A stretch of 64,000 nucleotides of DNA from Ananas comosus (taxonomy: Eukaryota > Streptophyta > Magnoliopsida > Poales > Bromeliaceae), in contig NC_033639.1 of assembly GCF_001540865.1 (NCBI RefSeq), positions 6,573,312 to 6,637,311 of the forward strand, in the 5' to 3' direction. The position numbers and the translations under genes were made by a program. The number at the start of each line of letters is the position of its first letter. Position 1 is the stretch's first letter. The notes beneath the pieces were generated by a model. The model was not told where the DNA came from. It searched no databases and was given only the letters and a program-made list of their open reading frames with translations. Shown here piece by piece: positions 11,601 through 59,443 of the stretch.

Positions 11601-14600
11601 AATACCCGCTTTTTTACTTTTTCTCCCTAATTTTCAGAAACCTATATTTACCCCTCAACATTTCAAATTGTTGCATTTAGCCCCCCTCCGTCAAGGTTTT
11701 ATCACTATTTCATCCATTTCTTATAATTTATATCGAAAACACCCTTCACAATGACAAAAATATATTAAAAAATTATTTTTTTTCTTATAGAAGAAGGGCA
11801 ATTTGGTCATTTTGTCCTCTTCATTAACAACGTACCCCTTTGAAAATATTTTTGAAATTTTAAGGGGGCAAAATGTAGATTTTTGCAAGTCAGCGAGGAA
11901 AAGTGAAAAAATAGGTATTTATAGAGAGGTTTTATGTGATTTAGCCAAAACTTAATTTTAGTGAGTTGGTCAAGCAAAATAGAACAGACATGCAAGTGAA
12001 AATAGCGTGAAAGTAAAAAAGCATAACTTGCCAACTATCGATAGCAACAACTTCTCTATATTGAAACAACTTACTAAACCTAACGACATCTATAAAAACT
12101 GCTACATTAGATAGAGACAAAAGCACAACAGAAAGAATACTGGCGAAGACATCAAAAACCTTGCCAACTATTTAGAAAGTCAATGGTGATCATATACAAT
12201 TACAGTGCACATCCATTTATATAGGGATCAGAGTTGTGAGATTGCTTTAATTATTGAAAACCAGATGTTGAATCTTTTTATTCTTCCCTCCATTTTATCT
12301 CTAATACTGTAAAATAGATAAAAATTCTACAAGACAGTACATTGGAATACATAAACATATAATTTGGGATAAAAAGAAAACGACAACAATGCATATCAAA
12401 CTTCAGGTGACCAACAAGCCAATCTTTCCTCCAGAGAAACAGAAAAAAAAAAAAAAAAAGAAAAACGCGCCATAAAAAGTTATAATTACTGGGTAGAACA
12501 TAAGCCAATAGCTTAAAACCTTAAACTAGAGAGGAAAGAGTGATTAAAGAAAAACACTATAGTTATGAATTCACCTGGGCCAACCATAACAGACGAGTTA
12601 GAGCTTTCAAAGCATCTGAATCCAAAAGAGGCATTCCCTCAACGTCTTTACTCTTAGAACTGTTCACCGTTCCAGAAACTACCCTTCTACCTATTGTTAC
12701 TCCAACTCCTCTATCCATCACAGTCTGCCTGTCGACCGTCAATCTCCTACTACCAAATCTGTGGCTGCCTCCAAAGAGGTTTCCACGAGCATGATAACGG
12801 TTGAATTCTCGGTCCCTTAGCATTTGGGCTTCAGCAATTAAAGCTGAAGGTAATGCCGATAGAACAGCCTCTGATGAAGTCAAAAGCACCTGAAGCAGCA
12901 AATAACAAAAAGAGATCACCAATATGAAATATATAACCATTATCTTAAGTTTGAAATTAACAAGTACTAGGTATCTTTAGCTGGGGACTCAGCATTAAAA
13001 ATAATTATCAAGTACTAGTTTAAATGTTGTGAATATTTCGATTTGCAAGGATATGCATAAATAGATACAATCACGAGTACAGATAAAAATATTTAAAAAT
13101 AAGTAATGAGAAAACAGTAATGGTACCTCTTCGCGCAACTCAGGAGGAAAAGTAGCTATAATTGAAGCATTATCCATATCAACCGGTTGTCCTTCAGCTT
13201 GCTGAGACAACCTTTGCGCCCTCTGTTGGGCCAAAACTTCAGCTTGAATGTCTGGTGGAAGAGCTGCTAAAAACTCAGGATCAATCTCCTCTGCCCTTGG
13301 TGGAGTATATGTTGTAGCTTGAGTGGAGTGGTTTTGCTGTGAAGCTTGCTGTGAAGCCAGCACTTCCGCACGGAGATCCTCTGGAAGTGCTTCCAAGAAA
13401 GTAGGGTCAATTTCATTTGCGCTTGAAGCCCCATTATTGGTATTGGCTTGCTCAATCAGGCTAGCCTCTTGTGGAACTCCTCCATTTCTACCATCTCCAA
13501 TTGAAGCAGGTAGTGCAGAGTCTTCGACCCCAGCAGCATCTACGCCATTCATCTCAACATCAGCACTCGCAGCGGCTGAACCAGCATGGGCATCACTCTG
13601 CTCTGTTACTGTTGCCGAGCCTGAAGAGATGAGGGCAACACAGCTCGAATGGCTCTCTACACCAGATGGCGCATCTCTAGTATCATTTTCCAGTTCATTT
13701 TCTCGGGCTTCAGCAGGTAGATCAGGTCCATCTTGCATGGGATGATCCAATGGTATATTCGTGATCAGGCCCACTTCCTCCCCATGCCTTTCATCACAGT
13801 GCATCATCTCACTACCATCATGCACGATGTTCAAGTCATCAAGTAATTGCTGCCTTGTCTCTGGATTTGTTTGATCCTCTGCTGCAGAAGCAACTGAGTG
13901 CACATCAATCATTCCACTGGCAAAAGCAGCTTGGGATGGAATATCTCCACTTAGTTGAGATGGAATATCGACTGTTGCAGGTACTTGGTTGTCTACATTT
14001 GATGGTGCTGATTGCTGACTATCCTGCTCTCCAGCTTGCTCTGTTTTCTCCCCATGCAAAGGAGCGTCATCAACAGTAGCAGCCACACCACGTAACTGTG
14101 ACACAAACTGATCCTCGATTGCCTGTGCAATAGCAGCAGCATTACTGCTGGCCTGAGGCTGGCCATCATCAGTCCAACGATTATCCCCAGAACCTCTTCT
14201 TCCTGCTATATGCCCCGAGTCCGTACCAAATGCAAAGTTAATGAATGATGATGGAGGTGGTGCTCCAACGAAACGATCACCAAAAGCATCTGATGGAAAT
14301 CCAGCATCTAACATGTAGAAGTGGGCTCCATCTAAATTCCCAAATGACAACGTGTCCATGTTTCTAGAGGTCAGTTGTTCCCCTGATGAAGATGGTCTAA
14401 TGAGTAATGGATGTTGAAAGGCATTTCCATTAAACCGTGATCGCTCAATGAAAGATCTGCTAGCATTCGGACGGCGGCGTTCTATACCAAACGGGTTGTG
14501 CAGATGGTACATGTCATCGGCTTCCACACCCTGAAACGATTCTGCAGCGATATCGATAAAACCACTAGCATTTCCGTGCCCCCTCGAGATTCGCAGCTGA

Positions 14601-17600
14601 TCTAAACCGTTGCCTAAGCCTTCCCTCCACCTCACTTCTATAACACGGTTCTCAGGAAAATCATCATCCTCCTCATCGATCATGTCATCGTTATATTCAT
14701 CAGCCATACCAGCGTCATCATGGTCTTCCACATCAGTATCAGCTAACGACATCAAGCCAGCTCCTTCCTCTGCTATATCCTCATCATCGTCCTCGTCATC
14801 ATCCTCATCATCATCCTCACCATCCTCGCCAACATCCTCATCATCTTCCTCGCCCATGTCATCATCAACTTCGTTTCTATTCTGCATTACATCACCATCG
14901 CCAATTTCCTCCTGCATGAACTCCATAACCCCTTGTTCAACTGGTGGGCCAGCAGCAGTGTTATCCTGCTCTCTGGGCTGATTTTCACTTACAGTTTGTT
15001 CCCTGTCATTCACAGATGGTTCCTGAACCCGCTGTCCTGGCTCTGCTGTTCGGACAGCATCAGCTTCTTGATGTTGAAAACTCACATTCTGGTCGAGGTT
15101 TGCAGCTTCATTTCTGGTTTGAGCCCCAGTTTCGTTACTTTCCTGGGAACCTGTCATAGATTTTCCCTTATGAATGGACCGATCTGACTTAAGCATTTGA
15201 TCACCAGCATTGGCAGCACCGGTCAGAGCCTCTAAAGCTTTGAGTATTAAATTCACAGATTTGGGAGCATTTGGGTGGTGAAAATCGATCACTTGAAGTA
15301 GACGGGAAAGGCATTGCACCATTCCTCCATCCAGCATTGCTTTAGCAATATCCGGTGAGCATCCAAGACCAGGCAAGTCACTAGATGAAGAAGTGTTTCG
15401 CGACAAAATAGAATTCACCAGATCAAGAAAAGCCAAAACCTTTCTTTCAGGTATTAAGCCTTTAGAGGAACTGGATGCTGAGTCTAAAAGGGGAGAAAAT
15501 GCTTTTACAATTTCACCAATAACACGTCTACGCCCTTCCATAGATCTTCCGCATAACACTACCAGGAACCAAGATGCCTTTTCAGATAGCTTCTCCTTCC
15601 ACTCATCTGAGGTTTCAGCTGACTTTTCCATTAACAATGGAAGCAACTGGTGCAGTATATGATGCACTATCCCACTCTGACCACCTAGTTGGCTTACTTC
15701 CATGTCCCGTTTCAGTATTATACCCACAGCATGTGCATACATGAGAAGTATCTCAGTCATCAGCTTGAGGACAAAAGTCACTTTTGCTACCCATGCAGAC
15801 CCCTCTGAGAGAAAACTACTTTCCATGTTCTTTGTCTCGTCATCAACTTTTGACTTACCTTTTTCCTTTGTATTGGGCTCATCAATTTCCATAAATGTAG
15901 CGCTTACACAATTATCATATCGTGAAGTGTAGCTCATAACAATTTCCAGAAGCTGCTCGATCACTTGAGATAGAGTAGCGGGTGGAACCCTTTTATGACC
16001 TCGTAAGCATTTCCCAGGTGTATCATTTGTTCTATTCTCAGGCAAACGAATTGGCTCATTATTGGATGGAACTGCACTTTCAGTGGCAGACACTCTCGCC
16101 TTGTCTTTCTCTTTATCCTTTAACAAGACCACATTTGTCCTTCCCCCTGAAGAATCTATGTGGCAAACTGAAGCAGCCGCTCTCATAAAGATTGCTGGGT
16201 CTCTTGATATCACAGGTGCCATAGAAGTCAAAAACGAGCGGGGAGATAAACGGCCGCCATACCTACTAAGGCTCCCACTTAGGGTTTGCTTTATCTCTAA
16301 TTCCATAGCGGCCTGAAGAGTTTGAGGGTCTTCAATGAGGTGGCGGATAATAGCAGAGGCCAAGCTATCAAAACCAGGAAAAATACAGCTTTTGGGGAGG
16401 CTAAAGAGAGTAGATAATCCTCCACGTTCAAGGAACTTTATAGCTAGAGAGTGTACTTTCGTTAGGCGTGCACATAGCTGTAGAACAGCCTGCATAGCTA
16501 TTGCTGGCACATGCTGCTTTATGAGATGACAAGCAATGGAAAGAGCTCTTTTGCTATCGTCAAGAGTCAGATAGCCAGTAGATTTCCCCAAGATCTTCTC
16601 GAGCTCATCACTGGATTCTTTCTCAACACTCTCCGCTGCAGACTTCTCCTTGGCTGCAGATGAATGACTTGCCAGGTGAGGGGCCGCCGATCTAGATGAG
16701 TCAGATAATGATTTAGAAGACCTGTCAGAGTTCTCCGAAGTGGATTTCATTTGTAACATAGTATCGAGTATTAACAGCAAAGCACTCAAAGCCTTAGTTG
16801 CCGGACTCTCATTGGCTGAAACATTAATATTCCTCACTGTGTAGTTATTCAATATGTCGAGTACAACAGGAACAAGACCATTCTCTGCAACAATTTCACG
16901 TACACTGCTATCTTCGTTTAGAAGCAAAGCCAATATGTGTGAGATGGGATATAAAGAACCTGTATCTCTGGAGAAATCAGATGGACATAGCTTCAGCTGC
17001 TGAACAAGATAAACAACCACCTTTGCACGGTCCTCCCCTTTGTTACGGTTGCAAAGCGTCACTAGCAAATCTGTCAATGAAAAAGCAACCAAATCGCTAC
17101 AACTGAAGAGCTTCATCGATGAAGCAAGCATATCATCCAAAGCGGGCGCCTCTACCTTTCTTTCTTCAGTAAATGCATTCATATTCTTATCACCAGCATC
17201 CTCCTTGGATGTTTCTGTGGAATTTCCAAGTGATAAAGCAAGCGCCTGAGCAAGCTGTACATCCTCCTGAATAGACTCCTCAGGATGGCTAAACAACCAA
17301 TCTGTCGCCATCTCAACACTATTTGTCCCCACGCTCCTCAAAGCTTCCTCAGCCTGAGCTCTACTAAAGCCCATCTCAACTATGGTAGCAACAACTGATT
17401 CATCAAGAGGGGGGCTAGTGAGTCTCTGAATGTTACTTCCAAACCCACTACGATTATTATTCAAATCCCCAACACCCGAGTATATGTGATTAAGTATAGA
17501 GACCAAGGAAGTAATTAGAGCAGGATCACAATTAGGAAACATGGGATGATTCCACACGGGAAGTACTATTTCAAGAACTTGGGAGTGCAGCATACGAATA

Positions 17601-20600
17601 AATCCTTCCGGGTCCCTCGGTATAGGAAAAAGATTAATTGTTAATTCAGTTGCAACAGGTTGAACCAGCAGCTGACCCTGAGATGGTGATGGGGATAATA
17701 GCAATGATGAATTCACATGATACTCCAATAGCCTGCAATAGCTTTGCAGTGTATCCAAAAGCCATGAACTGTTGCAAACTTTCTTCTCATCTACACAAGT
17801 CTCTACTTGATCAGGCACAGAAGGTGGCATAGAGAAAGGCAGAGTCCACAATAAATGACTGGTGGCCTCAAATGTAGTAAGAAGCTCCTTAAATGTTCCC
17901 TTGACGTAGAAACAATTGACCAGTGTCGCATTGCATGAACGGCGTCTGCTGTCGAAGATAAGTGACGCCATGTCTTCTACTACTTTTCCAAGATAGCGGC
18001 ATTTCACAGATAAAGACATTTCAAAGCCAGTGGTAGAATATCCAGAGAAGCTTAGAGCTGAATGAAAGAGCTGTGCAAGAGCAGTAACAAGGCTCTTAGC
18101 AGCAGGACTGAGGTTGGAATCAGTCCTTCGACGAGCTGGTAATCCTTTGATGAGAGAAGAGAGGAAGCTACGGATAGTGAAACCAAGTTTCGCAAGAACT
18201 TCTGCAACCAAAACATCCGGGCTCCTCTTTCTAGTTGAATCTTGAACCAAAGACTCCTCCAGTGTGGAGAGGGAGCCCTCTGTATCGGCATGTGATGCAT
18301 CAAGATGCCGACTAAATCTTCCACCACGAATCCGCGACAAAGCATGTCTCCCATGGCGATGAATACTTCCACCAGAACGTACCACAGAGACAAAATCCTG
18401 GTCAAAACTCCAATTAGAAGCATTACCATTTCTTGTAGCACTTGAGTACCTCAAAACTGGAACAATTCTTCCATCGTCGTCACTTTCCCTTGCGATAGTA
18501 CTGGACAACGAAGAAGAAGAAACTTCTCCACCTGTCCCAGCATCACGATCAGTATTATCTTGCTTCTCCTCTGCTGGAGAATCCCGAGATAAAAAGATTT
18601 GCCACGTTATTTCCTTGTAAACATTCCCCAAGTCAGTCAAGATATCAACCTCTCCAGCTGCCAACTCAGTGATCATAGAAGTCGATCCTTTCAACAGAAC
18701 ATTGGCAAGTGAGAGCAGCCCTTCTAGACTAGAAAGGCACCTCAAGATCTCTTGCTGTTTAGCCAATTCAATATCAGCAAGCATGGTTCCCGAAACCACA
18801 CCCAACAATTCATTTGTCAATTTAAGATGTTCTCTAAAACAGGTGCACATGACCCTTGCCAAAGAAATTGAATGCTGAGGTGAGAAGTTTTTAAATGCAA
18901 CAGATAAGCTCTGACCAATAGACGCAGAGGTAGGAAGTAAAGGCAATGTGAATAACTTGAGGACAGATTCTATTCCCTTTTTCTCAATAAAGACACGGCA
19001 CGTATCAGCATTTTGAAGAACCGATTCAAGAAGGCGAGCAACATTGGAGATACACTCGGGAAGAAAAGTCTCGATTGTCACAGATGATCCATCTGAAGAC
19101 GGCTCAATAATCTGCTCTGAACTGCCAATTTTTGATACTTCTCCCTCATCAGTCTCCATGGGAACTGAAACAGAGTCAGATCCCGACCCAATTCTCGAAA
19201 TAGCAGTCAAAATCTCAACAAGCATATCAACACCTGAGGTGCGGAGAGAAGAAGCATGGCGAACTAGCTCATCCAATCCATTAGACAATGCCCCAGTTGT
19301 ATCTACACTAAGAGCTCTCAAATATGATCTCGAAGTGAAAACTTTCACAAAACACCTAAGAGCATTATGATCCCTCACCAGTTGAAGGCCATTGGTGTTC
19401 ACACACAATGCATCCAAGCACTGAGGTATGCATGCGATGGCATCAGAATTACAGAGAACACCACTCATTATAGCATCAATAAAAGCCCGAGGCAAATCAG
19501 CTGCTTCAAGAATGGGGAAACATGTAGGATCTTTGTGTATAAGATCACTCATTACATTAGCAGCTAGTGAAAATACTCCACCACCAAAGTCTTTTGCCCT
19601 CCTAAAAATGGTACACAAACATGGTGGCAATATACTTTCTTCTGAGCCTTCAACTCGTGCAGAGCTTCCAGGAACATAAGTAGCGAGAGATATAGTGCGG
19701 AGCAAAGCTTTCATTAACAATCTCCGATGGTATGAAATCAAGGAATCTGAATAAAGAGATTGTTGCACACAAATTTGTTTTCCTTTCCTATCATATTCAG
19801 ATTGATCCTCGGATTTCAAAGAAACATTCTCAACTTCGATCTTCAGGCGTGCGATAGTCTCATCAAGGCCGCCCAGATCTTTAAATAAGGCTGAAGAAGG
19901 GTTGTGATAATCCAAGAAACCCTCAATGACATGCACTGCAGTACTAACAAGGTGTAGGTGCTGTGGGTTAGTATCTTTAAGCAGAGGTAAGATAGTAGGT
20001 ATGAATCCTGCTTCTTGAAGAGCTAAAGAACCAGAGGTAGACGAAACCAATATGGAAACAAGAGATAAAAGTGCTTCTGCAAAAACAATCGACCACTTTG
20101 TGGAACCGCTGGTGATAGAATCCACGGCCTTCTGCATAAGACTCGGAAGGATTCCACGATGGCCCCCAGTAGTTACAGAGGCCAAAACTGTAGACTGGTG
20201 GGACCTATCTTGGCATAGTGCAACCAACGCTAGGATACCCAAAATCCTAATCCTTTCAGGAATCTCATCATCATAGCTCAGTAATGATAAGAGCTCATTG
20301 CTGAATTCAGGTTCATTGTTGAAAAATGTTGCCACGTCTTCAGCATCATGGCTTGCCTGAACAAGAACTATGAAGGCATATAACTGGATGCATATATATT
20401 GGAGCCGATTTGTTAATGACCCAAAAGCCCTCACAAATCTCAATCTTGTTAGTAGCGCAAACCGCATATTCAGAGGTACATTGTGTTTATTCACCAACTT
20501 ATCGAGAATTTCAAGATCATTCTCATTATAAGAGCTAATGTTTGGTATATGAATAACTTGAAGGCCATGATTTGAGCATTCTGCATCGTTAGACTCACTT

Positions 20601-23600
20601 GATTGGTCGACAGTTGCATAGAACTCAAAATGGAGCGTGGAACCAACTTCAACAGCACTTGGATCACACCCACTAGGTAAGCAGCATGAGATTAATCCAA
20701 GGCCTTCTTCCTTGCAACCCCAACCTTGAGCAAATGCAAATAATTTAGAAGTCAGGGATGCATCACGTATAGAACATTTTCCAACTGATCTCTTCACAAA
20801 TGCCGTCAGTGTCTGAAGGCTTGCCTCGACAATGTCTGCATCAGTTGAAGCAAGAAGACATGACAGATGCTGCTGCATTCATAAAAGACACTCACGTTTA
20901 TGCCAATGTACATTAGAAACATCAGGAACAAAACCAAGAAAATAATAGAATAAAACCAAATAGAAATTCATTTACAAAGTGCTTACTTCGAAGGAGCTGT
21001 AGAAGTGCTTGTTAGTACAGTTCTCCAATATTATTCTTGTAACTCGCAGAATTTGCAGAACTGCATCCCGAGGAAAGGGAGGATCAGCATCAACGAAATT
21101 GTCATCGATTAATAAATCTTTCCTTGGTTTAATATACTTCTCAAGAAATAAGTCGAAATGGTTGAAAAGATCGATCCAGTGATGAAAATCCCCCTGCATG
21201 AAGTTTCTGACAGTTTGCTTAGAAAATTTTGCATGCTTTAAGGATGATATTGCAGGATAAAAAGCAAGAAGAGCAAACCTTATCAAATTCCCAGACGAAA
21301 CTCTTTAATGGTTCTTCGATGCTCTCAAGAGGAGCAGAAGTGACGACATTGATGAAAGAAGTTATATTTGGAGGCTGCAAATAAAGTTTTGTAAATAGTT
21401 GTGTTCAAACTATAGCATAAAGAGGAGAGGATGAATTTTATAACAGTGACTAAACAAAGCATAAACGAGCAAAAAACAGAAGCTTCAAAATCATGGAAGG
21501 GACCCACTAAAGTTCATAAAGACACAGCAATGTTTAAAGAATTATGTCTGCTCATATAAAACTATGTCTTCATTTTAGGGGCACCAGTAAGCAAGAGAGT
21601 CAAAGTAAGTAAATAAATAACAGGATATAGCATTTTAAATTGTTGGATCATGTTGATATCTTTTCCATAGCAGTTTATAGTGCAACTTATCAAAGGCAAA
21701 ACTTGTACACAATACTGTACCACAAGCATTTTTCAGTCCCGAGCAAAATGTTATCTAAGATAAACTCATGCTGTTCATATCTACAGTCTAGATAAATCTC
21801 AAAATCCTTTCACTATTAATCAAAAGATATAGTTCACTCACTTTGAAAACAGTAACATAGAAGATGTATGACTCACAACCACAGTTCAAATGAATGCCAC
21901 TACAACATTTATGAGCATTTGCAAAATTGCCATATATGATTTTATCAAGAATTCCACAAGCAACACAGTTGGGATCTGCAAATTTGAATTTTAATTGCCT
22001 TGAAAAAAGGATACCGTAAAGAAAACAACAAAGAGGGGCTTGGGGTAGCAGCCTACCGGCAAGCTAAAAAACTATAAACATAAATAAATAAAAACTAAAA
22101 AAGGAACAACAACAACAACAACAACATTGTCTTCTAGATTTTTTTTGCCTTAGATACTCTAGCTTGTTGAGAATATCAAACAATTTCATTACTCAAGCCA
22201 TCCAACATTTTGGAAAATGAATGACCCTACAGACCAATACTAATACTAATTTTACTACGAATGTAGTAAATTCTTAATAAACATACCGGAACATTTATGC
22301 AGCCTTGAAAGACAAATACATCCAATGTAACATTTATCAGCCAACTATGCCTTTTAAAGTATTATAACATCTCTCCAAGACTTGCAGAGGATAAATGATG
22401 TAATACCGAGAGTTCAATTATAAGGATTCTCAGATTAAAAAATAAGGGTAGTTTCACATTTGCTTTGAGTACATGTTGTCAGCTATCTCTTGTAATAACT
22501 ATCTATTAACAAAAAATATTTTTCATATCCTTCGTTGCACATGTACGTATACGAAGATATAGATACAATACAACATGGATATGGGGACACGGCCATCCCT
22601 AAAAACTCTATAATACAATACGCAGGGGATACTTGAATAAAATATTATTTAAAATATATTTCAAATATACTTGAATAAAATATAATTTTAAATGTATGTT
22701 TACTACATGTACTGATATATTGAGGACGATTAGGATGCCTAGATTATATTAGGATGCATAGACTTTAGCTCATACAATTGTTCTAGGTTTGTTCGTCAAA
22801 AAAGATAATCAATCGTATAAAATAATAATTCAAAGACTATCAACCAACTATCATCCATCTTGACCAAATGATAAGCATAGATATTTAGTTGCTCAAACTC
22901 GATAATTAGTCATTACTCATCATATATGTCTGTTTTCCAAATAGCATTAGGTTCTATATATAAAACATTAACAAAAGAAACTATGTTAACAATTAAATAA
23001 AAGCAAGAAAGGACCATTCTCTGCAGCCTCTGTTGATTACTACTAAGTTGGCCAATTAGATTTTTTTTTTTTTTTTAAAAAGCATAAGATAAACCCTAAA
23101 GGCCTGATCAATAGCTTAATATTATGTGGAGATAGAGTGAGAGAGAGCCTTCCACCATCCATGGAAAAAAAAAAACATAGGGAAATAATAGAGATTGGCA
23201 TTTCCCCCACCTCTTTCCTTACTACCAGTGGGTTAGTTATGGGTTTTTCGAAAAAAAAATTGAGTTCCGATCCTTTAAGACCAAAAAAGAACTCGGCCAT
23301 ATCCCCCCTCCCCTGCTATCCCGAGTTGTGTCCTCCTATATCCTCTAGTATCTCAATCGTATCCTGTAATTTTTTAATTATTTCTAAAAATTCCGAATAC
23401 TCCAATCCCGCATCAGCCACGTATTGGGCATGTACCGGGCACGCATCTATATCTAATATGTGAATGGCATGTAAATTGAAGTATTATGCTTTGCAGTTCG
23501 TATCATCGGCAATACTCAATTACTACATACAATTCTTGTTCTTTTTCTCTTTTTTTTTGTGGGAGATGCACTAATATCATAGGAATCTTTATATCTCTTC

Positions 23601-26283: not shown

Positions 26284-27725
26284 ATTTGGCTCGTTTAGTT
26301 CAAATCTACACTGGTAGTTCAGATATTTAACTTATAAATTAAAACGCTTTAGATACATGTCACCCTCTTACGGGGACGAATTCGGTACATGTGCCGTTTA
26401 ATATAATTATTTTAAAATAAACGGACGGAACAGAGAAAATAGTAGTCGTAAATTTAAACCAGAGAATTAGTTCCTAAGGAATTGTGGCTTTCACACCCCA
26501 TTAATTGTCGTCTGAGAACTCAGACAACCTTCGGTACTTGGATATTAAGACTAAAGTTTTATTTTAAATTTGTTTAAATTAGACATGGTACTTACTGGGG
26601 AGCGGGATCTTTGTGGATGCCGCCCCGACCGAGCAAACGCCGCTTGTTAAAATGTAAAAAAAGTTGATAAATTGGACGTAGAAAATTATTTCAACAATCG
26701 CAGTGAATTATTTCAACAATCTAAAACAGATTTTATTAACTAAACAATTATCATTATGTCTCTAACCACTCTTTTTTTATGAAATCACTATATATAAATT
26801 CCTAGCACGGACGATCGTTATTATTGAGCAACCTGGGTTTGATGACCGAGTTTTACGAATTTGAATCAATAATAATAATCCCAGGTACCAGAGAATATAA
26901 AAATTAGTGTTAAGACAAGGGTAGGCTACACCCTGTAGAACTAACCTAGAACCTCAGGATAAACAGCCCTCAGAACTCATACCAGCAAAAGTAAAACGCT
27001 ATCTTGGAATCATGAAAAATCTACGTGCCTCACACCTACTGAATAACAGTGACGTTTATTCACGTATAAGGCGGTGTTGGATCAGTGTTTGGTTGGTGTA
27101 GTATTATGGACCATCACCGATCGATCCACTAGTTTATCTAACCCGTTAGAACCATCTCGATGGTGCTGCGTACCATAGTGACAGTGCGGGGCTCGGGGCG
27201 GTTAACCCGGCCAAGCCCCCGCAGCTTGTCTGCGGCCTGCCTGTCGTGGAGGGGATAGACGGGTTCCGATTTCGCTGTTCCAGTACATGTTGTTCAAAGG
27301 TCTTTTTGCTGAACTTTATGCATGTTCTAGTTCGTTGTTGTTGCTCTCGTGTTGGTCACGATTTGTATATTCTCGTTCATAGTGTTCATATTTGTTCACT
27401 TGCTTTCTCTCTAAAGATTGATAATGTAGGTAAGTTGGAGAAATGTAACGAAATTAAATGTAAAAATTCGAAAGTTTTGTATTTGTATCTCAAATGTTAG
27501 AAAGTTTTATGGAGTGGTGGATATGTAGTAGATGCGAGTATATGTTTTCTATCGAGATTACGTATTACCTTCCAGTGATGTGATCCCGCGATACGGGAAT
27601 GGCGCTAGGAGGGGGCCTTGCGAGCGTGAGCCGGGACGTTGTTTTATCCCACTCTTGATATATTTTATCAAGGATCACCCAAGCCGGCGGCTGAAGCGGC
27701 TAGAAGGGTGATCCAGATTCTACCG

Positions 27726-27756
<31 letters not shown>

Positions 27757-30283
27757 ACTTTAACTTTGATACTAGATGATGCGGTAGTTTACGTTTGTTA
27801 CGTATCTTATAGGAGATTACTGTTCGGATGGTAAAACGATCATATGAAGTTGTTACATTATTTATGTTTACGTTGTATCAATACATTAGGAGATTGTATA
27901 TGATACAGATTAGTACCATACTTACGTTTAGGTGAAAACGATAAGTACAGTGAATGGGTTAGATAATCTGATTGGCGGATTCTAGAGTTAAGGTCATCCA
28001 CTTCTCGATGGGGCGGGAACAGAGTGGGTTGAGTATAGAGCTTACGGTATCCATTCTCGATGGGGCGAGAAACGGGCCGAGTTGAGTATAGAGCTTACGA
28101 TATCCATTTCTCGATGGGGCGAGAAATGGGCTGAGTTGAGTATAGAGCTTACGATATCCATTTCTCGATGGGGCGAGAAATGGGCTGAGTGTAGAGCTTC
28201 CAGTGTTCACTTCTCGATGGGACGAGTTTAGAGTATCCGCTTCCTTATCATCCAGATGAGTGTCGTACTTACGTTTAAGTGATACAATAAGTACAGTAAT
28301 AGGTTAGGAACCGGTTGAGACTCCAAGCGGGTGCTGAGTGTACGTAGAGCATTCCATTCCTCTGAGTTGAGTGAGTTGTTTGAACTCTGGCAGACGCCCT
28401 GGGGTATTCCGATAGGGGCCCTGGGGTATTCCGATAGGGCGCACACTGTTTGAGACCTCGCGTGCGAACACACCTCGCTGGTGGTGTTCGAGACTTGTCT
28501 GTCACTCATACTAGTTTAGGAGAGTTGAGCTCCTATAGGATGGTAGATTCCAATTGTTGTGTTGTGAAATCCAAGAGATGGGTTTAGTACTGATCCCTTT
28601 AGGTGGATAGGAATATAAGTTACAGTATTCACAGTTGATGTGATTCAAGAGTACGTTATACGGTAAAGTACGTTATACGGTGTTTGATCCTTTTACGTGT
28701 ATAAGGGATACAAGTTACGGTGTTCACAGTTGATGTGATTCAAGAGTACGTTATACGGTAAAGTACGTTATACGGTGTTGATCCAAGGCTACGGTGAGCA
28801 GTACAATAATGTAACAAATGTACGGTGAGCAGGTCCAAGATTCACAAAGATTATATGATTAAGTGCTAGGTAACCAAGAGCAATGGTTAAGTTCAAGTGA
28901 TTAAGAATAGTGATATCCTAGAGTACAGTTTGTTGGGTTAGGAATACGGGGAATCTTAGTACACAGTTCGATGGGGCGATGTGATGATTCGTTCGTACGT
29001 TCCTTTCGTTCCTTTCTTACGAAGATATTATTAATAGGATATTACGTATTCTTGTCTATATACCTTGTACTAGTTGTTAAGATTGAGCCTGTATCCTTCT
29101 TCGAGTTAACGAAGCCCTACCTGTGGGGGGTGGAAAATAGCGCAAGGCTAACGAGCAGCAGTGGGAGTTAGCCGGAGGGCGCCGCGTGCGGCGAGCCGAG
29201 CTGGGTTAGGTGCGCGCTGGTGGCTTGCTGGAGGCTAAGTGCTAGACCTCTAATTTCCAGAAGCCAAAGAACGATGCTGTGAGCCTTAGGTTAGGGCGCT
29301 AAATACTTGCGGAGGAGCCGGGAGGTTCGCCTTTGCTTCGATTTAGGAGGCAAAGTAGTTATAGAAGCGCATCTGAGCTGCTTACGAGTTTGGCTGAAGC
29401 GGTTGCGCAAGTTTGTGGATCGTTAATCCAATTGTCTACCATTTAAATCTAGTTTTGGGAGATGAGGTGTTTTGGGAGTAAACTCGGGATCTAATGTTGA
29501 TCCATTTTTAGGGGGTAATTAGGAGATCTAAGTACGTAATAGGTTGATAAATCGTAGTATCCTCAGTAGTTTTTAGTTTAGATCTCAAATATTTAGTTTG
29601 GGATCGATGAACGGTAATTTCTCATAGTTCGAATGGAGAAGTTCGAACGATGATCGGTTCCTTCCTCTTCTTCTTCTTTAGGGAAGAGAACTAGAACTAG
29701 AGGTGGTTTTAGGAAAGGAGGTAGTGGAAGATCTCTCTCTTCTTTTCGTGAATCTCTCTCTCTCCCTCTGGAAAACCAACGTTACACTCCCTCTTCCTCT
29801 CCTTTACTCGGGGGTTGAGAGAGATATGTGAGTCGTGTAAACGTGTTTCCGGGGAGTTGTTATACTCAACACGTATCGGGTTTGACCCGGTAAAAGCCCA
29901 CGACCCTGGACAGGGTCCATTCCTCTCTGGCCAGGGGCTTCCAGGTCTAGAGGTCGTAAATTCCTGAATCGGTTAAAAAGTCGGAAAAGGGTAAAATCGA
30001 GGCAAAAACGAGCAAACTGGAGGCTAAGAAAAGTTTAGCTTAACTCTGATAGGTTTGTACCAAAGCTTGTACAAAAGTAGTAGGAAAGTAGGTGCGATTG
30101 CGGTCTAAATCGAGTACCGGGTTGTATCGGAAAGCCCAGGGCAAAAGCGCGGATACGCGAGGCTTTTGCGGGCTTACGAGGGCCTGAAGTGACCTTGGTA
30201 AGTTTACTGAGAGATTGGTTTACGTGTGGCATTGAAGTACTAAAATCTTCAGGCCATGGAATGTTAGTGTTATCGAATTCACC
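26284..30283. repeat. Mirror (reversed, uncomplemented) copy of 47697-51804
   Basis: Reading forward from 26284 gives the characters of 51804, 51803 and so on. The rule is partner = 78088 - position up to the 54-bp repeat zone near 28.1 kb, and partner = 77980 - position after it, because two 54-bp units are missing. The mirrored solo LTR spans 27181-30264. Its mirrored target duplication TAGTG sits at 27176-27180 and 30265-30269. At 26548 the base is A where the partner 51540 is G. The reverse complement does not match. Any ORF, LTR or motif call inside is invalid. Confidence 0.96.
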
Positions 30284-32283
30284 GCGACTTGGCGGTCAAT
30301 TTAAGTTGAGATGCTTAGTTTGGCGACATGGCGGTCGATTTTAAATTGAGTTGCTCAGTTTAATGACATGACGATCAGTTGAAGGTTGAGATGCTCAGTT
30401 TAGCGACATGGCGGTCGATTGAAGTTGAGACGCTCAGTTTAGCGACATAGCGGTCGATTGAAAGTTGAGACGCTCAGTTTAGCGACAAATTGAGTTGCTC
30501 AGTTTAGCGACATGGTGGTCGATTTTGTTGCGGTCGGTTTGAGTTTTGGTGCTCAGTTTAGCGACATGGCGGTCAATTGAAGTTGAGACGCTCAGTTTAG
30601 CAACATGGTGGTCGATTGAAAGTTGAGATGCTCAGTTTAGCGACATGGCGGTCGATTGAAGTTGAGACGCTCAGTTTAGCGACATAGCGGTCGATTGAAA
30701 GTTGAGACGCTCAGTTTAGCGACATGGCGGTCGATTTTAAATTGAGTTGCTCAGTTTAGCGACATGGTGGTCGATTTTGAATTGAGTTGCTCAGTTTAAT
30801 AACATGGCGGTCGGTTGAAGTTGAGGTGCTCAGTATAGCAACATGTCGGTCGATTTTAAATTGAGTTGCTCAGTTTAATGAATGGCGATCGATTTGAGTT
30901 TTGGTGCTCAGTTTAATGACATTGCGATCGATTTGAGTTTTGGTGCTCAGTTTAATGACATTGCGATCGATTTGAGTTTTGTTGCTTAGTTTAATGACAT
31001 GGCAGTCGGATGCTCAGTTTAACGACGTGATGGTCAATTGTTCAGTTTAACGACTTGACGGTCATATTTGAATATTATTTGCTCAATTTAGCGACATGGC
31101 GGTCGATTTTAAATTGAGTTGCTCAGTTTAGAGATATGGAGGTCGATTTGACTTTTGGTGCTCAATTTAATGACATGGCGGTCGGATGTTCAGTTTAATG
31201 ACTTAATAGTCATTCGTTCAGTTTAACGACTTGATGGTCATTTGTTCAGTTTAACGACTTGATGGTCAATTTGAATTTGAATTCAGTTTAACGACTTGAC
31301 GGTCAAATGTTCAGTTTAACGACTTGATATTCAGTTTAACGACTTGATGGTCATTTGTTCAGTTTAACGACTTGATATTCAATTTAACGACTTGGTGGTC
31401 ATTTGTTCAGTTTAACGACTTGAGGGTCAATTTGAATTCGACCTTAGTTTAACGACTTGAGGGTCAATTTGAATTTGAATTCAGTTTAACGATTTGACGA
31501 TCAAATGTTCAGTTTAACGACTTAATGGTCTTTTGAATTTGTATTCAGTTTAACGACTTGATGGTCATTTGTTCAGTTTAACGACTTAAGGGTCAATTTG
31601 AATTTGAATTCAGTTTAACGACTTGACGGTCAAATGTTCAGTTTAACGACTTGATGGTCAAATGTTCAGTTTAACGACTTAATGGTCATTTTGAATTTGA
31701 ATTCAGTTTAATGACTTGACGGTCAAGTGTTCAGTTTAACGACTTGATGGTCAATTGTTCAGTTTAACGACTTGACGGTCGTTGTTTAGTTTAACGACTT
31801 TGCGGTCGTTTAGTTTAACGACTTTACGGTCATTTGAATGTGAATTGTTTAGTTTAATGACTTTGCGGTCGTTTGAATGTGAGTTGTTTAGTTTAACGAC
31901 TTTGCGGTCGCTTGGATTTGAGAGGCTTTGGATTTTGGGGTTTTAGTTGTGGACTTTAGGTTTTGGGCTTTATTTGTGGACTTTGGGTTTTGAGATTTTA
32001 TTTGTGGACTTTGGGTTTTGGATCTTATCTGTGGACTTTGGATTTTGAGTTCGATTCAGATCGAGTTGACGTGAACCTTTTGTATTTGATTTGGGTTGAG
32101 CCGCCTTAGGTTGGTTTGGCCCTTCTGAATTTGGTTTGGGTCGACCGTTATGCTTTGGTTCAAGACCCGTTGAGACTTGGTTTAGGTCGAACCCATATGC
32201 GTAGTTCGAGATTCTTTGAATTTAATTTAGGTCAAGCCCTTATGGTTTGGCTCAACTTGGACCCTCTTATAGTCTTGTTTCGT
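30284..32283 (+). repeat. Direct copy of 51805-53569 with extra minisatellite units
   Basis: From GCGACTTGG onward the sequence follows 51805-53569 in normal orientation and ends at the same CTTGTTTCGT. It is 2,000 bases against 1,765, and the 235-base excess is whole repeat units in the GACATGGCGGTCGATT and GACTTGAGGGTCAA arrays. Otherwise it is nearly identical, which suggests another allele or an uncollapsed version of the same array. Confidence 0.9.
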
Positions 32284-32284
32284 N

Positions 32285-33290
32285 TGTATGCAGGGAAAAC
32301 TTCTTCGCATACGGCGGATCTGTTAGTGTGCTCGGAAAAATGTGTAATCCGAGGCGTGACATAATAATTATTAATTTATTATTTATAATTAATTATTATT
32401 ATTATTATTATTTATAATTAGATAATCGATATTAGAAGAATGCTTCAATACACCGGCTAAATCAAATCTAGCCGTTCATATTTTAAGGGCGAGATTGACT
32501 TTTGCATAATAGTTACCTTCTCAACAGTTTACCATTCGTAAGGACAATATGGGAAAACAAATACAAGCTAATTAATTACCAAATTTGATTAACCCTACAC
32601 AAATATTTGTTTCCTTGTTAATTTTGTTATTTACCAAATTAGATAGTGCTAATTTGATAAGTAATAAGCCTTTATAAAATTGAATTTAAAATTTAGTTTG
32701 AGCTTAAACTTTATAATTGTGTACATTAAATTCAAATTTAATTTTAATTTTAATTTTCAGAACGAAAAAATTTACGTTTAAATGAATAGTATATTTCAAT
32801 TCAAATTGTTAATTTGATATTAAAAGACACGAAATTTCAAATATATTAACTTATTTTAAATTATAAATTATGTTGTATTTATAAACATAACTTTTATTAT
32901 TTATTTAAATTAAAGGCTTCTATTTTTAAAATTAAATTCAAATTGTTCATCCAATAGTAAAAACAACATTAAAGTTCAAAAATAGAATGAGATATTTTAT
33001 AATTATTGGAGGGGCATTATGAGAATGAAAATAAAAATTTACAAAAAAATCCTTAATGCTAATTTTACATATGAGGAAATAATTTGCCCTTGGTAAGAGG
33101 GTGATTGATACCTAAGGCAACAAAAGCCATTCACCCTCTTAACTAAAAAATATCTCCACCATTCATTTTAAAAAATTTAAGAGCCGAGATCGTTTCGGTG
33201 CATAGGAGCATTGCTCTCGATATTATTATTAATTTATTATTTATAATTAATTAATAAGAATAATTAATAATTATTATTATTTATTAATAA
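32285..33290. repeat. AT-rich fragment between two Ns, duplicate of 35540-36410
   Basis: This piece lies between the Ns at 32284 and 33291. The first 80 bases end in GAGGCGTGACA, which resembles the 3' end of the chromovirus LTRs in this window. The remainder matches about 35540-36410, including the shared blocks AGATTGACTTT, TAGGAGCATTGCT and TTAATTACCAAATT. The two copies differ mainly by one- and two-base insertions and deletions. Confidence 0.7.
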
Positions 33291-33291
33291 N

Positions 33292-33969
33292 GAAAACTTA
33301 TGTTTTTCTACAAATCAAACACTATAAGACGTGAAACATTTTTTTACCATTTTTTTTCATGGAAAGCTACTTTTTACGGTTTTTTGTACAACCAAATACC
33401 CCTTTAGTTACACCCTAAAATCATGTACTTTTATTATTTTCATTAAGTTACCATTATTTTATTGTATTTCAGATTTATTTTTATTTTTCTATTTTATACT
33501 AATTTCTTTTATCATATTGTCACGTCATTGGATTTAGGTTTTCTGTTTAGAAAAGAGTGGCTGATTTTTTTTAAAAAAAAATCATCAGAATTATGCAATA
33601 GACAACCAAAAGAAGTTTGAAATATAAAAAACGATTTGGAACGTGCACAAAACAGCCACATGTCTAGAGTTTTTCTATCCACACGAACAGAGTCTCCCCT
33701 ATACATGCATAACATTAAGCATAAGAACATTTCAATCAAGCAATCAAGTTGTATTTAAGAAGCGATATTTTGATTCATAATATAACAGATCAGTCATACA
33801 AGCATGACTCCCACTAATAATATAAAATAGTATAGTGATAGCATATCCCTCCAAATATCGCCAACACAAATCTCTCCATATTTGCGCAATAGAATAAATA
33901 TAACCTCGCATATCTCTGCAAATAAAATACAAAAATCAAAATTTTGAAGGCCACAAACGAAAAACCAAG
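33292..33969. other. AT-rich noncoding DNA left of the Tat LTR
   Basis: No gene, TIR pair or known family is visible. The stretch runs from the N at 33291 to the start of the Tat-element LTR. Confidence 0.4.
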
Positions 33970-34247
33970 TGTTGGCGCCGAAAAAATAGTGCCACATGGT
34001 AAGCGGCGCGTTCCACGCAATTAAACAATGGGAACAAAATAAAAGGTGACACGTGGTACACTAGAAGTCGAGGAAAAGAACGCCTAAATAGAAGAGCGGT
34101 TTAGATAGGAACGGTTAGAGACATAGAGGGAGATTTTCATAGCTAGTAAGTTATCAATTGAAGCACATCCCGAGGAAGTAGGAACGTGACCGAAGAAACC
34201 TTTATGATAAGAATCACCCAATAATTTCAGGCAGAAAAATATGCTAC

Positions 34248-34255
34248 TATAAATA
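34248..34255 (+). promoter_or_regulatory. TATA box in the Tat LTR
   Basis: TATAAATA in the middle of the LTR is the likely core promoter for the retroelement transcript. No activity can be inferred for such a decayed element. Confidence 0.5.
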
Positions 34256-34484
34256 GCAAAAAGCGCGCCTGTGATGGGGATCCTTCACACAAGCAAGCGA
34301 TCACGACAAATTTCAATTCCTTTTCAATTTCTAGTATTTATGATTTTCTAGGAGTAGTCCACAGATTTTTTTTTTTCTATTTTTTAAGAGTTTAGTTAAG
34401 TTTAAGAGCTTTTCTAAAAGTATATTTAGACTTTATAACAGCTTTTGTAATCCTCCCTTTTCAATTAATATAAATAGCTAGACT

Positions 34485-34634
34485 TACCGACCGTCCCTAG
34501 AGCAAGTGGCAAAGGACTAGGTGGTTGGTACCCGAGACCCAAGTTCGAATCCTAGTTGATTCACATTTTCTAAGTTTATTTCTAAATGAAATAAACGAAG
34601 CGGGTAGTGTGCTACCTATCTCTCAAAAAAATAA
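34485..34634 (+). mobile_element. tRNA-derived SINE inside the LTR
   Basis: This 150-bp element carries a box A-like TAGAGCAAGTGGC and a box B-like AAGTTCGAATCC, the internal RNA polymerase III promoter of tRNA-derived SINEs. It ends in CTCTCAAAAAA. A perfect 15-bp target duplication ATAAATAGCTAGACT flanks it at 34470-34484 and 34635-34649. The clean duplication shows it inserted into an existing LTR. Confidence 0.88.
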
Positions 34635-34966
34635 ATAAATAGCTAGACTCTTTCAGCTAACCTCGCCTTTCAGCTCATTTGCGAATAGTTAGCAGAAGAG
34701 CCCGGTTGAGCCGATCCTTTCTAAACCAAATCGACTTACTTAGTAGTGGCACATTCAAAGGTCATTCCAAGAGCCGATTCACGCTTTGCGGACATGTCTG
34801 ACTTGGTCAACTCATTGATCCAGTCAGTGTTGCCCCGCACATTCGGTTTCTAGCCCAACAATTTTTAACATGCCCGGTAGGACCTGCTCAGGTAAATCTA
34901 AACATCTCTCAAATTGCTAATGATAACATAATGAACCTTTGAAATAGGGCCATTCCTAAACCCTCA

Positions 34967-37194
34967 GCGTTTGGTTCGGGAACAAGGGGGGGAATAAGCC
35001 CTTGTTCCCCCCTTTGTTCCCAAAACGGTATGTTTGGTTTCCGAGAACAGTAGTTCCAGGATTTCTGGAACAAGCTGGTATAAGGCTGGAATTGCTGTTC
35101 CACCCGTTTCCTGGAACTAGCTTGTTCCTTGATGAGAACAAGGTTAATTAAAATCTAAATTTAATTTTAATGGCAGTAAATTATTAATTAATCTAATTAA
35201 TATATTTAAATCATTATTTATTACTTTAATAATTAAATAAATAATTATTTATTTATTTATAATTAATTATTAATAATTAGATAATAATTATTATTAATTT
35301 ATTATTATTTATAATTAATTGTTAATAATTAGAAAATTATTATTATTAATTTATTATTTATAATATATTATTAATAATTAATAATATTTATTATTATTTA
35401 TTAATAATTATTATTCTTAATGATAATCAATATTATTATTAATTTATTATGTATAATAAGTTAATAATAATTAATTATTATTATTATTATTTATTATATT
35501 ATCTTAATTATTTTTTTATAATTAGATAATCATATTATTTATTAATTTATTATTTATAATTAATTTATTATTATTATTTTATTTATAATTAGATAATCCG
35601 TATTGTAAAGATGCTTTCAATACACGGCTATCAAATTAGCCGTTATAGTTTAAGGGCAGATTGACTTTGTGTAATAGTTACCTCTCCAGTTACATTCGTA
35701 AAGACAATAGGGGAACAAATAAAAGTAATTAATTACCAAATTGATTGTAACCTACACATAATATTGTTTCCTTGTTAAGTTTGTTATTTAAATTAATATG
35801 CTAATTTGATAAGTAATAAGCTTTATAAATTTGAATTTAAATTTAGTTTGACTTATAATTTATAATTGTGTGTCATTAAATTCAAATTTAATTTTATTTT
35901 AATTTGAGAACGAAAAATTTACGTTTAATATGAATATAGATTTCAATTCAAATGGTGTTATTTGTATTAAAAGACACGCAAATTTAAATTTATTAACTTA
36001 TTTTAAATTATAAATTATTTGTATTTATAAAAATAACTTTATTATTTATTTAAATTCTAAGGCTTCTATTTTAACTAATTCAAAAATTGTTCTGCAATAG
36101 TAAAAAACAACATTAAGTTCAAAAATAGAATGAGATATTTATATTTATTGAGGTGGCATTATGAGAATGTAAAAATAAAATTACAAAAAAATCCTTAAGT
36201 GCTTTTTAAATCTGAGGAATATATTTGCCCTTGGTTAAAGAGGGTGAATTGAATACTAAGGAAACAAAAGCATTCACCTCTTAACTAAAAAATCTCCACC
36301 ATTTCATTTTAAAAAATTTAAGGCGAGAATCGTTTCGCGTTGATAGGAGCATTGCTTCATATTATTATTAATTTATGATTTAATAATTAAGTAATAGAAT
36401 ATATATAATTATTATTTTATAATAATTTATTAATATATAATAATAATAATAATTAAGTTAATTAGTATAATCGATATTATTAATTATTATTTATATTATT
36501 ATATAATTTATTATTATTATAGTTAATTATTAATATTAATTTATTATTTGTATTTAATAATATTTTGAGTTATTAATTATATAATTATAATTTTAATTTC
36601 AATTATAACTCTTATTCCTCTGTGTTCAATCTAACAATTCCGAACACTATGTTAACTGTTTCCTAGGAACAATTCAATTTTCATTCCAAATGCCAAATTG
36701 GGCTGAGTTCTATTATTACTGATTGTAATTTAATCCCTTGGAATAGCAGTTTCTTATTACACCTGAACTAACGAACTCAGAGGTAGTGTTTTAGTTCTAC
36801 GAATAGAAGGGAGAATAGAGCCGCTTATTCCGCGCTTTATGTTCCCAAATATGCGTTTGGTGTGAACCGAAAACAGTAGTGTCGGGTTTTATCTAAATAA
36901 AGGCCAGTTGTAGGCTAGACCTTTGTGTTTTACCTTTTTGCTGGAACAAGTTGTTCCTAAGTGGAGAATAAGGTTATTAAAATCTAAAAATTTTATATAT
37001 GGTGATTAAATAATTAATAATTTAATTAATATATTTAATTTATTATTATTGCTAATAATAATTTATTTATTAATTTATTATTATAATTATAATTAAATCT
37101 ATGTATATTTATATATTATTAATAATTACTTATTTATTTTTGTTAATAAATAATTAATTAAATTATTTATTAGTTATTAAATTTATAATAATAA

Positions 37195-37232
<38 letters not shown>

Positions 37233-37762
37233 ATCTTAATTAAATAATTTATTATTATTATTTATTATTTATATTAATTATTACAATTAATTATTTATTT
37301 AATTTATTTATTGTTCTAAAATTATTAATAATTATTTATATTAAATAATTTATTATTATTAATGATTTATTCATTTATAATTATTTAATAATTAATTAAT
37401 TAATAATTTTATTCTTATTAATTAATTTATTATTAATTAAATAATTTATTTATTTTTAATTAATCAATTAATAATTTATAATTATTAATAATTAATTATT
37501 TATATTTTATTATTTAAATAATTTTTTATTAATTAATTTATTTATATTTTATAATTATTAATATTAATTTATTATTATTAAGTAATATTTTGATGTTAAT
37601 TAATTAGGTAAAATAATTTTAATTTAAAATTATAACTCTTATCCTATTTCTAGGAACAACCCAATTTTTATCCAAACGCAAAATTGGTCAAATTCCTGCT
37701 TATATCTGAACTTGTACCTATCCCTGGAATAAGCAGTTCTTATTTATACCCGAACCAAACGC
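34967..37762. mobile_element. AT-rich TIR element (nested or duplicated) inside the gypsy element
   Basis: Perfect 14-bp inverted ends GCGTTTGGTTCGGG (34967-34980) and CCCGAACCAAACGC (37749-37762) enclose 2.8 kb of AATAATTTATTA-type sequence with a T-run near 37.2 kb. The terminal 150 bases recur in degraded form near 36.6-37.0 kb (GTTCCCAAATATGCGTTTGG, CTGGAACAAG). The element may therefore be two related copies in tandem or nested. The ends resemble PIF/Harbinger MITEs. I see no transposase and no clean target duplication. Confidence 0.68.
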
Positions 37763-37929
37763 AGTCTCAGGGATTGATCAGACAAGTAGCGCCGAAAATA
37801 CAAATGAGCATCAGGCGGCGCTACCATCAGGAGGTGAACGTAGTGGATACTCGGCTTACTAAGAGCCGAGCCTAACTTAGGCACTCGGGCAAATGACTTG
37901 AGTTCTTTAGACTTTGGATCAGAATAGCC

Positions 37930-38960
37930 ACTAGAGCACTGCCTATCTAGATGCGGTGCTAGCCACCGTCATGACCTCGAATAAGAACATCGCTCGCATC
38001 GAGCAACTATCAACTCGGAACGAGCAACCATATGGAAGTGTTTCTAGCGATCAATCCGACCATACCAATGCAGCAAAATGCCGTTGCACCGACGATCTCG
38101 CAGGCGCAAACCTAAATGGCACCTTCTACGCTGTCTACGGGCTGATGAATGTAAACATCGGCCCACAATTGGAAGTAGCATAGGTCTTAACATACATTAA
38201 TTTATTTGACGTTGCTAAAACTGATCAGATATTTGATAGGTTGTATGAAGACGAGAGGATTAAACTTCAGGAAGGCCAAATATTGCTTTTCGGTGAGGAG
38301 TTAAGAAGAAGGAAATACTACAAGTCACACCATTCTTGGAGCCGCAAAACTAATGATTGCACAGCCTTCAAGAGGAAAATACAAAGAAAAATAAATAAAG
38401 GTCGGTTGGTTTTCGTCGACCAAGAAAACAAGAATGATATGAAAATTGACCAAACTCCCTTTCCCACACAGGTGAATATAGTGGACATTAAGGCGAAGAA
38501 GCCACTCTAGGACGATAAGTTCCAAGAGGATGTAGTTAAGAGAAGGAGAATGCTTTGGCTCTTCGTTAGATGCAAGGCTGAAATGACGTGCAAGGATTGC
38601 AAAGCAATTGTGCATGAGAAAAAATACGTTCGGGGAGTGGAAGGAGTTCATGACTTTCCCTGAAGAGTGCGGGGGACATACCCAAGGCAATAGGCGAACC
38701 GGGTGAGTGTTCGGAGAACTCTAATAACTTCGAGGAGGTGAATTCAGGAAAGGATCTGCCAATTCAAAAGGTCTTAAAAAAATATTACCAGATAAGGAAG
38801 AAGGCTGGTCGAGAGGATCATCCGGAGCGACCTTTCTTTATACATCAGAAGAATCAGGGATATCGGCCCATGTGGTATCAATACCCGCGGCCAAGACCCA
38901 AACCTAATTCGAGGGGATGATTGAGAAAGATTAGGAGCCCTCAGTCGAAGATTAGTTAAT
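37930..38960 (+). pseudogene. Gypsy gag region, degenerate
   Basis: The frame around 38241-38510 (DDRLYEDERIKLQEG-like start, then NDCTAFKRKIQRKI and DQTPFPTQVNIVDI) matches the C-terminal gag of plant Tat/gypsy elements. It is followed by a C-rich segment with TCKDCKAIVHEKKYVRGVEG and by a linker ending RPMWYQYPRPRPKPNSRG. Stops and frame changes occur between these blocks, so no intact gag exists. The region lies directly after the AT-rich TIR element. Confidence 0.62.
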
Positions 38961-41150: not shown

Positions 41151-41219
41151 TTCAAATAAAAAATCAATCATTGGGCCGATTTAAAATTAGCCTCCGAATG
41201 CATGAAGAAATATGATTTA

Positions 41220-41584
41220 GGTTAAACTACAGAAAAGCTCTCTGTAAATATCTATTTTTTGCTTTTCCTCTCTTACTTTCAAAAATCTATATTTGCCCCT
41301 TTAAAATTTCAGAAATATTTTCATGGGGTATGGAGTTAATGTAGAGGGCAAAATGACCAAATTATCCTTACTTTTTCTATAATTTTTTTTGAATATATTT
41401 CTATTTTTGAAGGATATTTTTCGTATAAATTATAAGAAATGGATGAAATAGTGATAAAACCTTGACGGAGGGGGGCTAAATGCAACAATTTGAAATATTT
41501 AGGGGGCAAAATATAAGTTTTTGAAAGTTAGGGAGGAAAAGTGAAAAAGTAAGTATTTATAAGGGGAATTTCTATAATTTAGCC
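41220..41584. mobile_element. Mutator-type MITE, copy 2, in the gypsy pol region
   Basis: This 365-bp element belongs to the same family as 11574-11946 but lies in the opposite orientation. Its ends are GGTTAAACTACAG and ATAATTTAGCC. The 9-bp target duplication TATGATTTA (41211-41219) versus TATAATTTA (41585-41593) matches at 8 of 9. It splits the gypsy pol between the RT and RNase H blocks, so it is younger than the gypsy insertion. Confidence 0.87.
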
Positions 41585-41593
41585 TATAATTTA

Positions 41594-49792: not shown

Positions 49793-50100
49793 GTCGGGTA
49801 AAGAGCGGGGTAGCTCTTTACCTATAGCATTCGAGATATGAGTTGAGTCGGGTAAAGAGCGGGGTAGCTCTTTACCTATAGCATTCGAGATATGAGTTGA
49901 GTCGGGTAAAGAGCGGGGTAGCTCTTTACCTATAGCATTCGAGATATGAGTTGAGTCGGGTAAAGAGCGGGGTAGCTCTTTACCTATAGCATTCGAGATA
50001 TGAGTTGAGCCGGGCAAAGAGCGGGGTAGCTCTTACCTATGGCATTCGAGATATGAGTTGGGTGAGACAAGGGCGGGGTAGCTCTTCACCTACTGGAATT
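49793..50100 (+). repeat. 54-bp minisatellite in the solo LTR
   Basis: About five units of 54 bp run through this part of the LTR, the inner ones perfect and the outer ones diverged. Every unit holds the hairpin arms AAAGAGC and GCTCTTT around GGGGTA. The mirrored version near 28.1 kb has two fewer units, so copy number varies between versions of this locus. Confidence 0.85.
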
Positions 50101-50334
50101 GAGATCTTAGGCGGTTAGTCTAATAGATTGGGTAAGTGACATGAATAGCAAAAGTGGATTTGCATTCATACCATGATTAGACATAGTATATGTTAGAGGA
50201 TTACATAACTATGTTGCATTTGTATTTATTACATTGTTGAAGTATACTAGCAAAATGGTAGGCTTGTCATTAGAGGATATTCTATGCATTGTTTGCATTT
50301 GATGGCGTAGTAGATCATAGTTTCAATTTCATTT

Positions 50335-50362
50335 CTATCTATCTATCTATCTATCTATCTAT
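50335..50362 (+). repeat. (TCTA)n microsatellite
   Basis: Seven tandem TCTA units lie in the solo LTR. The mirrored copy is at about 27727-27753. Confidence 0.8.
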
Positions 50363-53205: not shown

Positions 53206-53390
53206 GAGAGGCTTTGGATTTTGGGGTTTTAGTTGTGGACTTTAGGTTTTGGGCTTTATTTGTGGACTTTGGGTTTTGAGATTTTATTTGTGGACTTTGG
53301 GTTTTGGATCTTATCTGTGGACTTTGGATTTTGAGTTCGATTCAGATCGAGTTGACGTGAACCTTTTGTATTTGATTTGGGTTGAGCCGC
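53206..53390 (+). repeat. Minisatellite 2: GTGGACTTTGGGTTTTG units
   Basis: A short run of about 30-bp units with the words TTGTGGACTTTGGGTTTTG and GATTTTATTTG bridges the first and third arrays. It is duplicated at about 31920-32060. Confidence 0.75.
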
Positions 53391-53564
53391 CTTAGGTTGG
53401 TTTGGCCCTTCTGAATTTGGTTTGGGTCGACCGTTATGCTTTGGTTCAAGACCCGTTGAGACTTGGTTTAGGTCGAACCCATATGCGTAGTTCGAGATTC
53501 TTTGAATTTAATTTAGGTCAAGCCCTTATGGTTTGGCTCAACTTGGACCCTCTTATAGTCTTGT

Positions 53565-56160: not shown

Positions 56161-56161
56161 G

Positions 56162-56386
56162 CTCGATCAACCCTTTCGACCATGTCGAGCCTATCGCGAA
56201 GATAGCCGCACGGTTTACGTAGTAAAATAGCCGTGGCTCGATCAACCCTTTCGACCATGTCGAGCCTATCACGAAGATGGCCGCACGGTTTACGTAGTAA
56301 AATATTCGGTGCTCGTTCAACCATTTCGACCATGTCGAGCCTATCGCGAAGATAGCCGCACGGTTTAGAGATTAGCGATGCATACG
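56162..56386 (+). repeat. Three 75-bp tandem repeats
   Basis: Units starting CTCGATCAACC at 56162, 56237 and about 56312 (CTCGTTCAACC) are spaced exactly 75 bp. Each contains CATGTCGAGCCTATC and CGCACGGTTTACGTAG. They form a small ordered array in otherwise irregular repeats. Confidence 0.85.
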
Positions 56387-56514
56387 CACGGTGGAAGTGA
56401 CGATTTGATGTCAAATTTGATCGGTTCGAAACCTATCACGAAGATGGTCGGGTTGATCAAACTGACAATAAAATCGCACTTACGCTATTCGTATGCATGT
56501 ATATCTCTTGTTGT

Positions 56515-56660: not shown

Positions 56661-56749
56661 TCGTGCTTCAACTCTTTTTTTCTTTTTTCTTTTTTTTACT
56701 TTCTTTTTTCTCTCTTTTTTTCATTCTTTTTCTTCTTTTTTTTTGTTGG

Positions 56750-59442: not shown

Positions 59443-59443
59443 N

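Follow-up and report, generated by a model that had tools for sequence, protein, structure and literature searches.

A 4,000-base block of reversed but uncomplemented sequence in a pineapple contig, best explained as an assembly software error

Sequence analysis of a 64,000-nucleotide stretch of Ananas comosus DNA (hereafter the window, to which all positions refer) revealed a block of exactly 4,000 bases, 26284-30283, which reads as 51804 back to 47697 in string-reversed, uncomplemented form (unstranded). Its partner, in the correct orientation on the plus strand, occupies 4,108 bases at 47697-51804. We consider with high confidence that the block is a software error: 6,000 bases derived from another version of the partner locus were probably inserted here, and a string reversal was applied to the first 4,000 of them. 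It is very likely not a biological feature.

The mirror relation was established by alignment and by position-by-position comparison. When reversed as a string and aligned with MAFFT, the block matched 47697-51804 over its full length, apart from a single gap of 108 bases and two substitutions, at 29166/48814 and 26548/51540. This agrees with the initial annotation, which had described 26284-30283 as an uncomplemented reversal of that segment and had proposed this very alignment as a check. The gap equals two units of a 54-base minisatellite reported by TRF in both places; the array in the block (27996-28190, unstranded) has two units fewer than that of the partner (49790-50092). The same annotation had given the partner position as 78088 minus the block position, changing to 77980 after the minisatellite, and these offsets were accurate: 1906 of 1907 positions matched in 26284-28190 and 2092 of 2093 in 28191-30283, giving 3998 of 4000 positions with the 108-base gap set aside. 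With the reverse complement at the same offsets, not a single position matched (0/1907 and 0/2093, or 0/4000 in all). A binned comparison gave the same picture. In each of eight 200-base bins from 26400 to 27999 (offset 78088) and each of ten from 28200 to 30199 (offset 77980), 199 or 200 of the 200 reversed positions matched, and in all eighteen bins the reverse complement scored 0/200.

Inverted duplications are common in plant genomes, and the pair might be taken for an ordinary reverse-complement duplication misread as a mirror. The complete lack of matches at 4,000 mirror positions rejects it, since the partner of an inverted duplication should be the reverse complement. In addition, self-BLAST of the window, among the listed matches of at least 250 columns, gave no reverse-complement match between the two places. 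The probability left to this reading is practically nil.

The string-reversed window was also searched against the window itself (BLAST, E up to 1e-3, low complexity masked), and the block/partner pair was found with E = 0. Apart from two self-mirrors (29 and 31 bases), what remained were weaker matches linking parts of the block either to repeats within the partner or to an LTR relative (57989-59370). For control, 27 other 4,000-base blocks were reversed and searched against the window, the longest match being recorded for each. Six of them matched the block, and all six overlap the partner or the LTR relative. Of the other 21, 17 gave no match and four gave only the self-mirrors of 29 or 31 bases. 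Chance or low-complexity mirror symmetry was ruled out by this search together with the control blocks. A complement-only copy was rejected as well, as no 20-mer is shared with the complemented window.

Of the two copies, the partner is the correctly oriented one, and it is the block that runs backwards. Three properties identify the partner as native: the TG...CA ends of its LTR, a forward LTR relative, and positive polarity under a Markov model. The partner contains a solo-LTR-like element in native orientation (47716-50907, plus strand), starting with TGTAAGG and ending with CGTGACA. It is flanked by a target-site duplication GTGAT, present on the plus strand at 47711-47715 on the left and 50908-50912 on the right, and was typed as a putative solo LTR based on its TG...CA ends and this duplication. 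In the block, the mirrored solo LTR (27181-30264, unstranded) has backward-spelled ends and has lost TG...CA. It is bordered by two unstranded mirrored duplications TAGTG, of which 27176-27180 corresponds to GTGAT at 50908-50912 and 30265-30269 to GTGAT at 47711-47715. The whole mirrored element with both TAGTG copies was present as first described, with GTGAT as its counterpart in the partner. The LTR relative at 57989-59370 (plus strand) is diverged and partial, showing 70.4% identity to the partner LTR over 837 alignment columns and 73.7% over 490. It aligns forward with the partner and has to be reversed to align with the block; the latter match results from its forward homology to the partner. 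With block and partner masked, the LTR found no match in the reversed window.

The compositional polarity of the block was also reversed relative to the rest of the sequence. For training a fifth-order Markov model, the remainder of the window was used on both strands, leaving out the tested stretch, 26284-37600 and 47697-55300. Scoring excluded 30284-38000 and the greater part of 51697-55500, where repeat arrays and AT-rich sequence predominate. The score (forward minus reversed) was negative in both halves of the block (-33.3 and -85.8). Of the 26 stretches of 2 kb, 23 scored above zero and one (55501-57500) scored 0.0, so that negative values occurred only in the block halves. Dinucleotide counts pointed in the same direction: the partner has a deficit of CpG but none of GpC (149 vs 193), and in the block the relation is inverted (186 CpG vs 142 GpC). 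This sign by itself is weaker evidence, as it is not unique to the block; among 75 other 4-kb blocks, which overlap one another and contain neither the 6,000-base piece nor the arrays, it was found in two, both within 55501-60000, where the Markov scores were near zero (0.0 and 2.0).

Some further features were recorded in this part of the window. The region 55501-59442 combines near-zero Markov polarity and an excess of CpG over GpC with GC-rich tandem repeats and the LTR relative; because this relative is forward, the region was not taken as reversed. Arrays of a 47-base repeat are located at 53672-55220, with about 25 copies in 53778-54925, and a strong CpG excess was seen at 53572-55500 (126 CpG vs 27 GpC).

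The borders of the block are informative about its origin. The window holds four Ns, all single (26283, 32284, 33291 and 59443). The N at 26283 directly precedes the block, with the partner match beginning at the next base, and would represent the junction with the contig on the left. The N at 32284 would be the right junction of the inserted piece. Between these two Ns lie exactly 6,000 bases, of which the block forms the first two thirds. The remaining intervals between Ns measure 1006 and 26151 bases and so are not round numbers. The remaining 2,000 bases of the piece (30284-32283, plus strand) are an ordinary forward copy of the 1,765 bases at 51805-53569 (plus strand), differing by five substitutions and four insertions (64, 15, 119 and 37 bases). 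All of these differences fall within 30421-31500, in a tandem array, and the last 783 bases are identical to the partner. After the N at 32284 two further bases agree with 53571-53572 of the partner and then the match is lost, within three bases of the N. The N at 26283 is unreadable, leaving the left edge open by one base. For these two reasons we only infer that both Ns mark joins rather than unread bases.

The inner junction of the piece is sharp. Position 30283 pairs with 47697 and not with 51804, while 30284 pairs with 51805 and not with 47696; as the pairing is exclusive on each side, the right breakpoint of the block cannot be shifted. Projected onto the partner, the reversed part adjoins the forward part at 51804|51805, and the continuation of the forward part at 51805 means that the block was reversed in place inside one colinear piece. 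This piece of 6,000 bases is a version of 47697-53569 that is colinear throughout, except that the first 4,000 bases have been turned round where they stand. The description of the block as a mirror copy of the partner accordingly stands as to the mirror relation and needs to be narrowed as to the source: more exactly, the block is an end portion of another version of that locus. The lengths are round only in the coordinates of the piece (the corresponding partner lengths are 4,108 and 1,765), so cutting and flipping acted on the string of the piece and the operation was not a copy from the partner in the present scaffold.

Two side observations concern the same region. A 39-base minisatellite family forms large arrays in both versions of the locus, at 30284-31922 and 51783-53208, and these arrays differ by the insertions of 64, 15, 119 and 37 bases given above. 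To the right of the piece, a stretch of 1,006 bases (32285-33290) is enclosed between two single Ns; its part 32360-33288 is about 86% identical to 35531-36426 in direct orientation, and it is possibly a further misplaced or alternative piece belonging to this contig break. Beside the other Ns (32284, 33291 and 59443), the mirror self-BLAST gave no match except that of the LTR relative (57989-59370).

A physically real mirror copy, made by some process that copies with reversed strand polarity, would account for the fact that the letters are present in the sequence. Reversal without complementing amounts to parallel-strand copying, which to our knowledge no polymerase, recombinase or transposase performs, all of these being bound to antiparallel templating; on this ground the block is very likely a software error. 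The exact lengths of 4,000 and 6,000 bases and the N at the edge likewise indicate software. We regard a real mirror copy as extremely improbable. If it were true, real plant DNA produced by parallel-polarity templating would overturn the universal rule of antiparallel nucleic-acid copying.

The preferred explanation, a software error, can be outlined as follows. A contig break was probably the site at which 6,000 bases from another version of the locus were inserted. The piece may be an allele or an alternative contig of the partner locus, misplaced during scaffolding or gap filling; outside the tandem arrays, two substitutions separate the versions. A step of the pipeline would then have string-reversed the first 4,000 letters of the piece, either as a fixed-length reverse operation lacking its complement step, or as the reversal of a piece which needed no turning. 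The exact lengths and the edge at an N are such as a fixed-length string operation would leave. The initial annotation had called the cause almost certainly computational, and this is supported by the N before the block, the exact 4,000 and 6,000 bases, the forward continuation matching 51805-53569 and the reversed polarity. Scaffolders of the SSPACE type put single Ns between contigs. No confirmation of this habit was found in the available excerpt of PMC6733440 or in the other literature searched. A comparable block in a published assembly was not encountered in the titles and abstract openings of the literature searched.

The flip could also have arisen after assembly, if the record or a copy of the sequence was edited or became corrupted, and not in the assembler, scaffolder or gap filler. 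An exact length of 4,000 bases and a sharp right edge would fit any scripted edit. The block begins exactly at an N, however, which would not be expected had an edit been made at random, and the distance between the Ns, an independent measure, is exactly 6,000. Moreover, the piece carries differences of its own from the partner (two plus five substitutions and changes in minisatellite and array copy number), which shows that it was a separate sequence already before the flip. A post-assembly origin is judged unlikely.

Compared with known systems, the arrangement resembles a misassembly in which a duplicated (allelic) contig has been placed by scaffolding or gap filling, in having single Ns at both ends of the piece and a near-identical version of the locus about 21 kb away which differs mainly in tandem-repeat copy number. 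In ordinary misassemblies contigs are placed forward or reverse-complemented. The present case differs in that two thirds of the piece are reversed and uncomplemented. In the terms of REPuter, a reverse repeat is a copy that matches when read backwards without complementing. The block belongs formally to this class, for which a plastome study describes 'reverse repeats' with a minimum of 30 bases and up to three mismatches (PMC6995153); it differs from them by its 4,000 bases with two substitutions and one gap, and by its start at an N. Uncomplemented mirror symmetry is also shared with mirror repeats of H-DNA (triplex) potential (PMC9171763). Those are polypurine-polypyrimidine tracts; the block has a mixed composition, contains an LTR and lies about 21 kb from its partner. 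Finally, reversed, uncomplemented DNA serves as a deliberate negative control in homology searches (PMC3242753); the block is the product of the same transformation, but inside a genome sequence.

Sequence to the left of the first N stops at 26282, on the 5' side of a gene on the minus strand. An open reading frame of 2,627 codons (12995-20878, minus strand) with DUF908, DUF913, UBA and UBM domains is predicted to code for the N-terminal portion of a HECT ubiquitin ligase resembling UPL1/UPL2. Over 2,693 alignment columns it was 70% identical to a UPL1-like protein from Typha angustifolia, and over 2,251 columns it was 52% identical to a protein from Gossypium barbadense. In the best 120 of 433 matches (7986 candidates scored), all entries with a species name were from plants. 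Among the matches listed, Gossypium barbadense ranked first by E-value (60% identity over 72% of the queried region), and Typha angustifolia showed the highest identity (72% in the region), with oil palm and date palm coming next (68-70%). A true reverse-complement repeat pair is present at 11573-11950 and 41216-41585, with 81.5% identity over 384 columns.

The block matters as a case for assembly quality control and not as biology. An uncomplemented reversal is missed by searches limited to the forward and reverse-complement orientations, and would pass for 'unique' sequence of the species, with a gap in read coverage as a further consequence. Aligning an assembly with its own string reversal offers an inexpensive screen, which found the block at once in the window. 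For this region of the A. comosus genome, the probable error places a duplicated piece beyond the 5' side of the UPL1-like gene.
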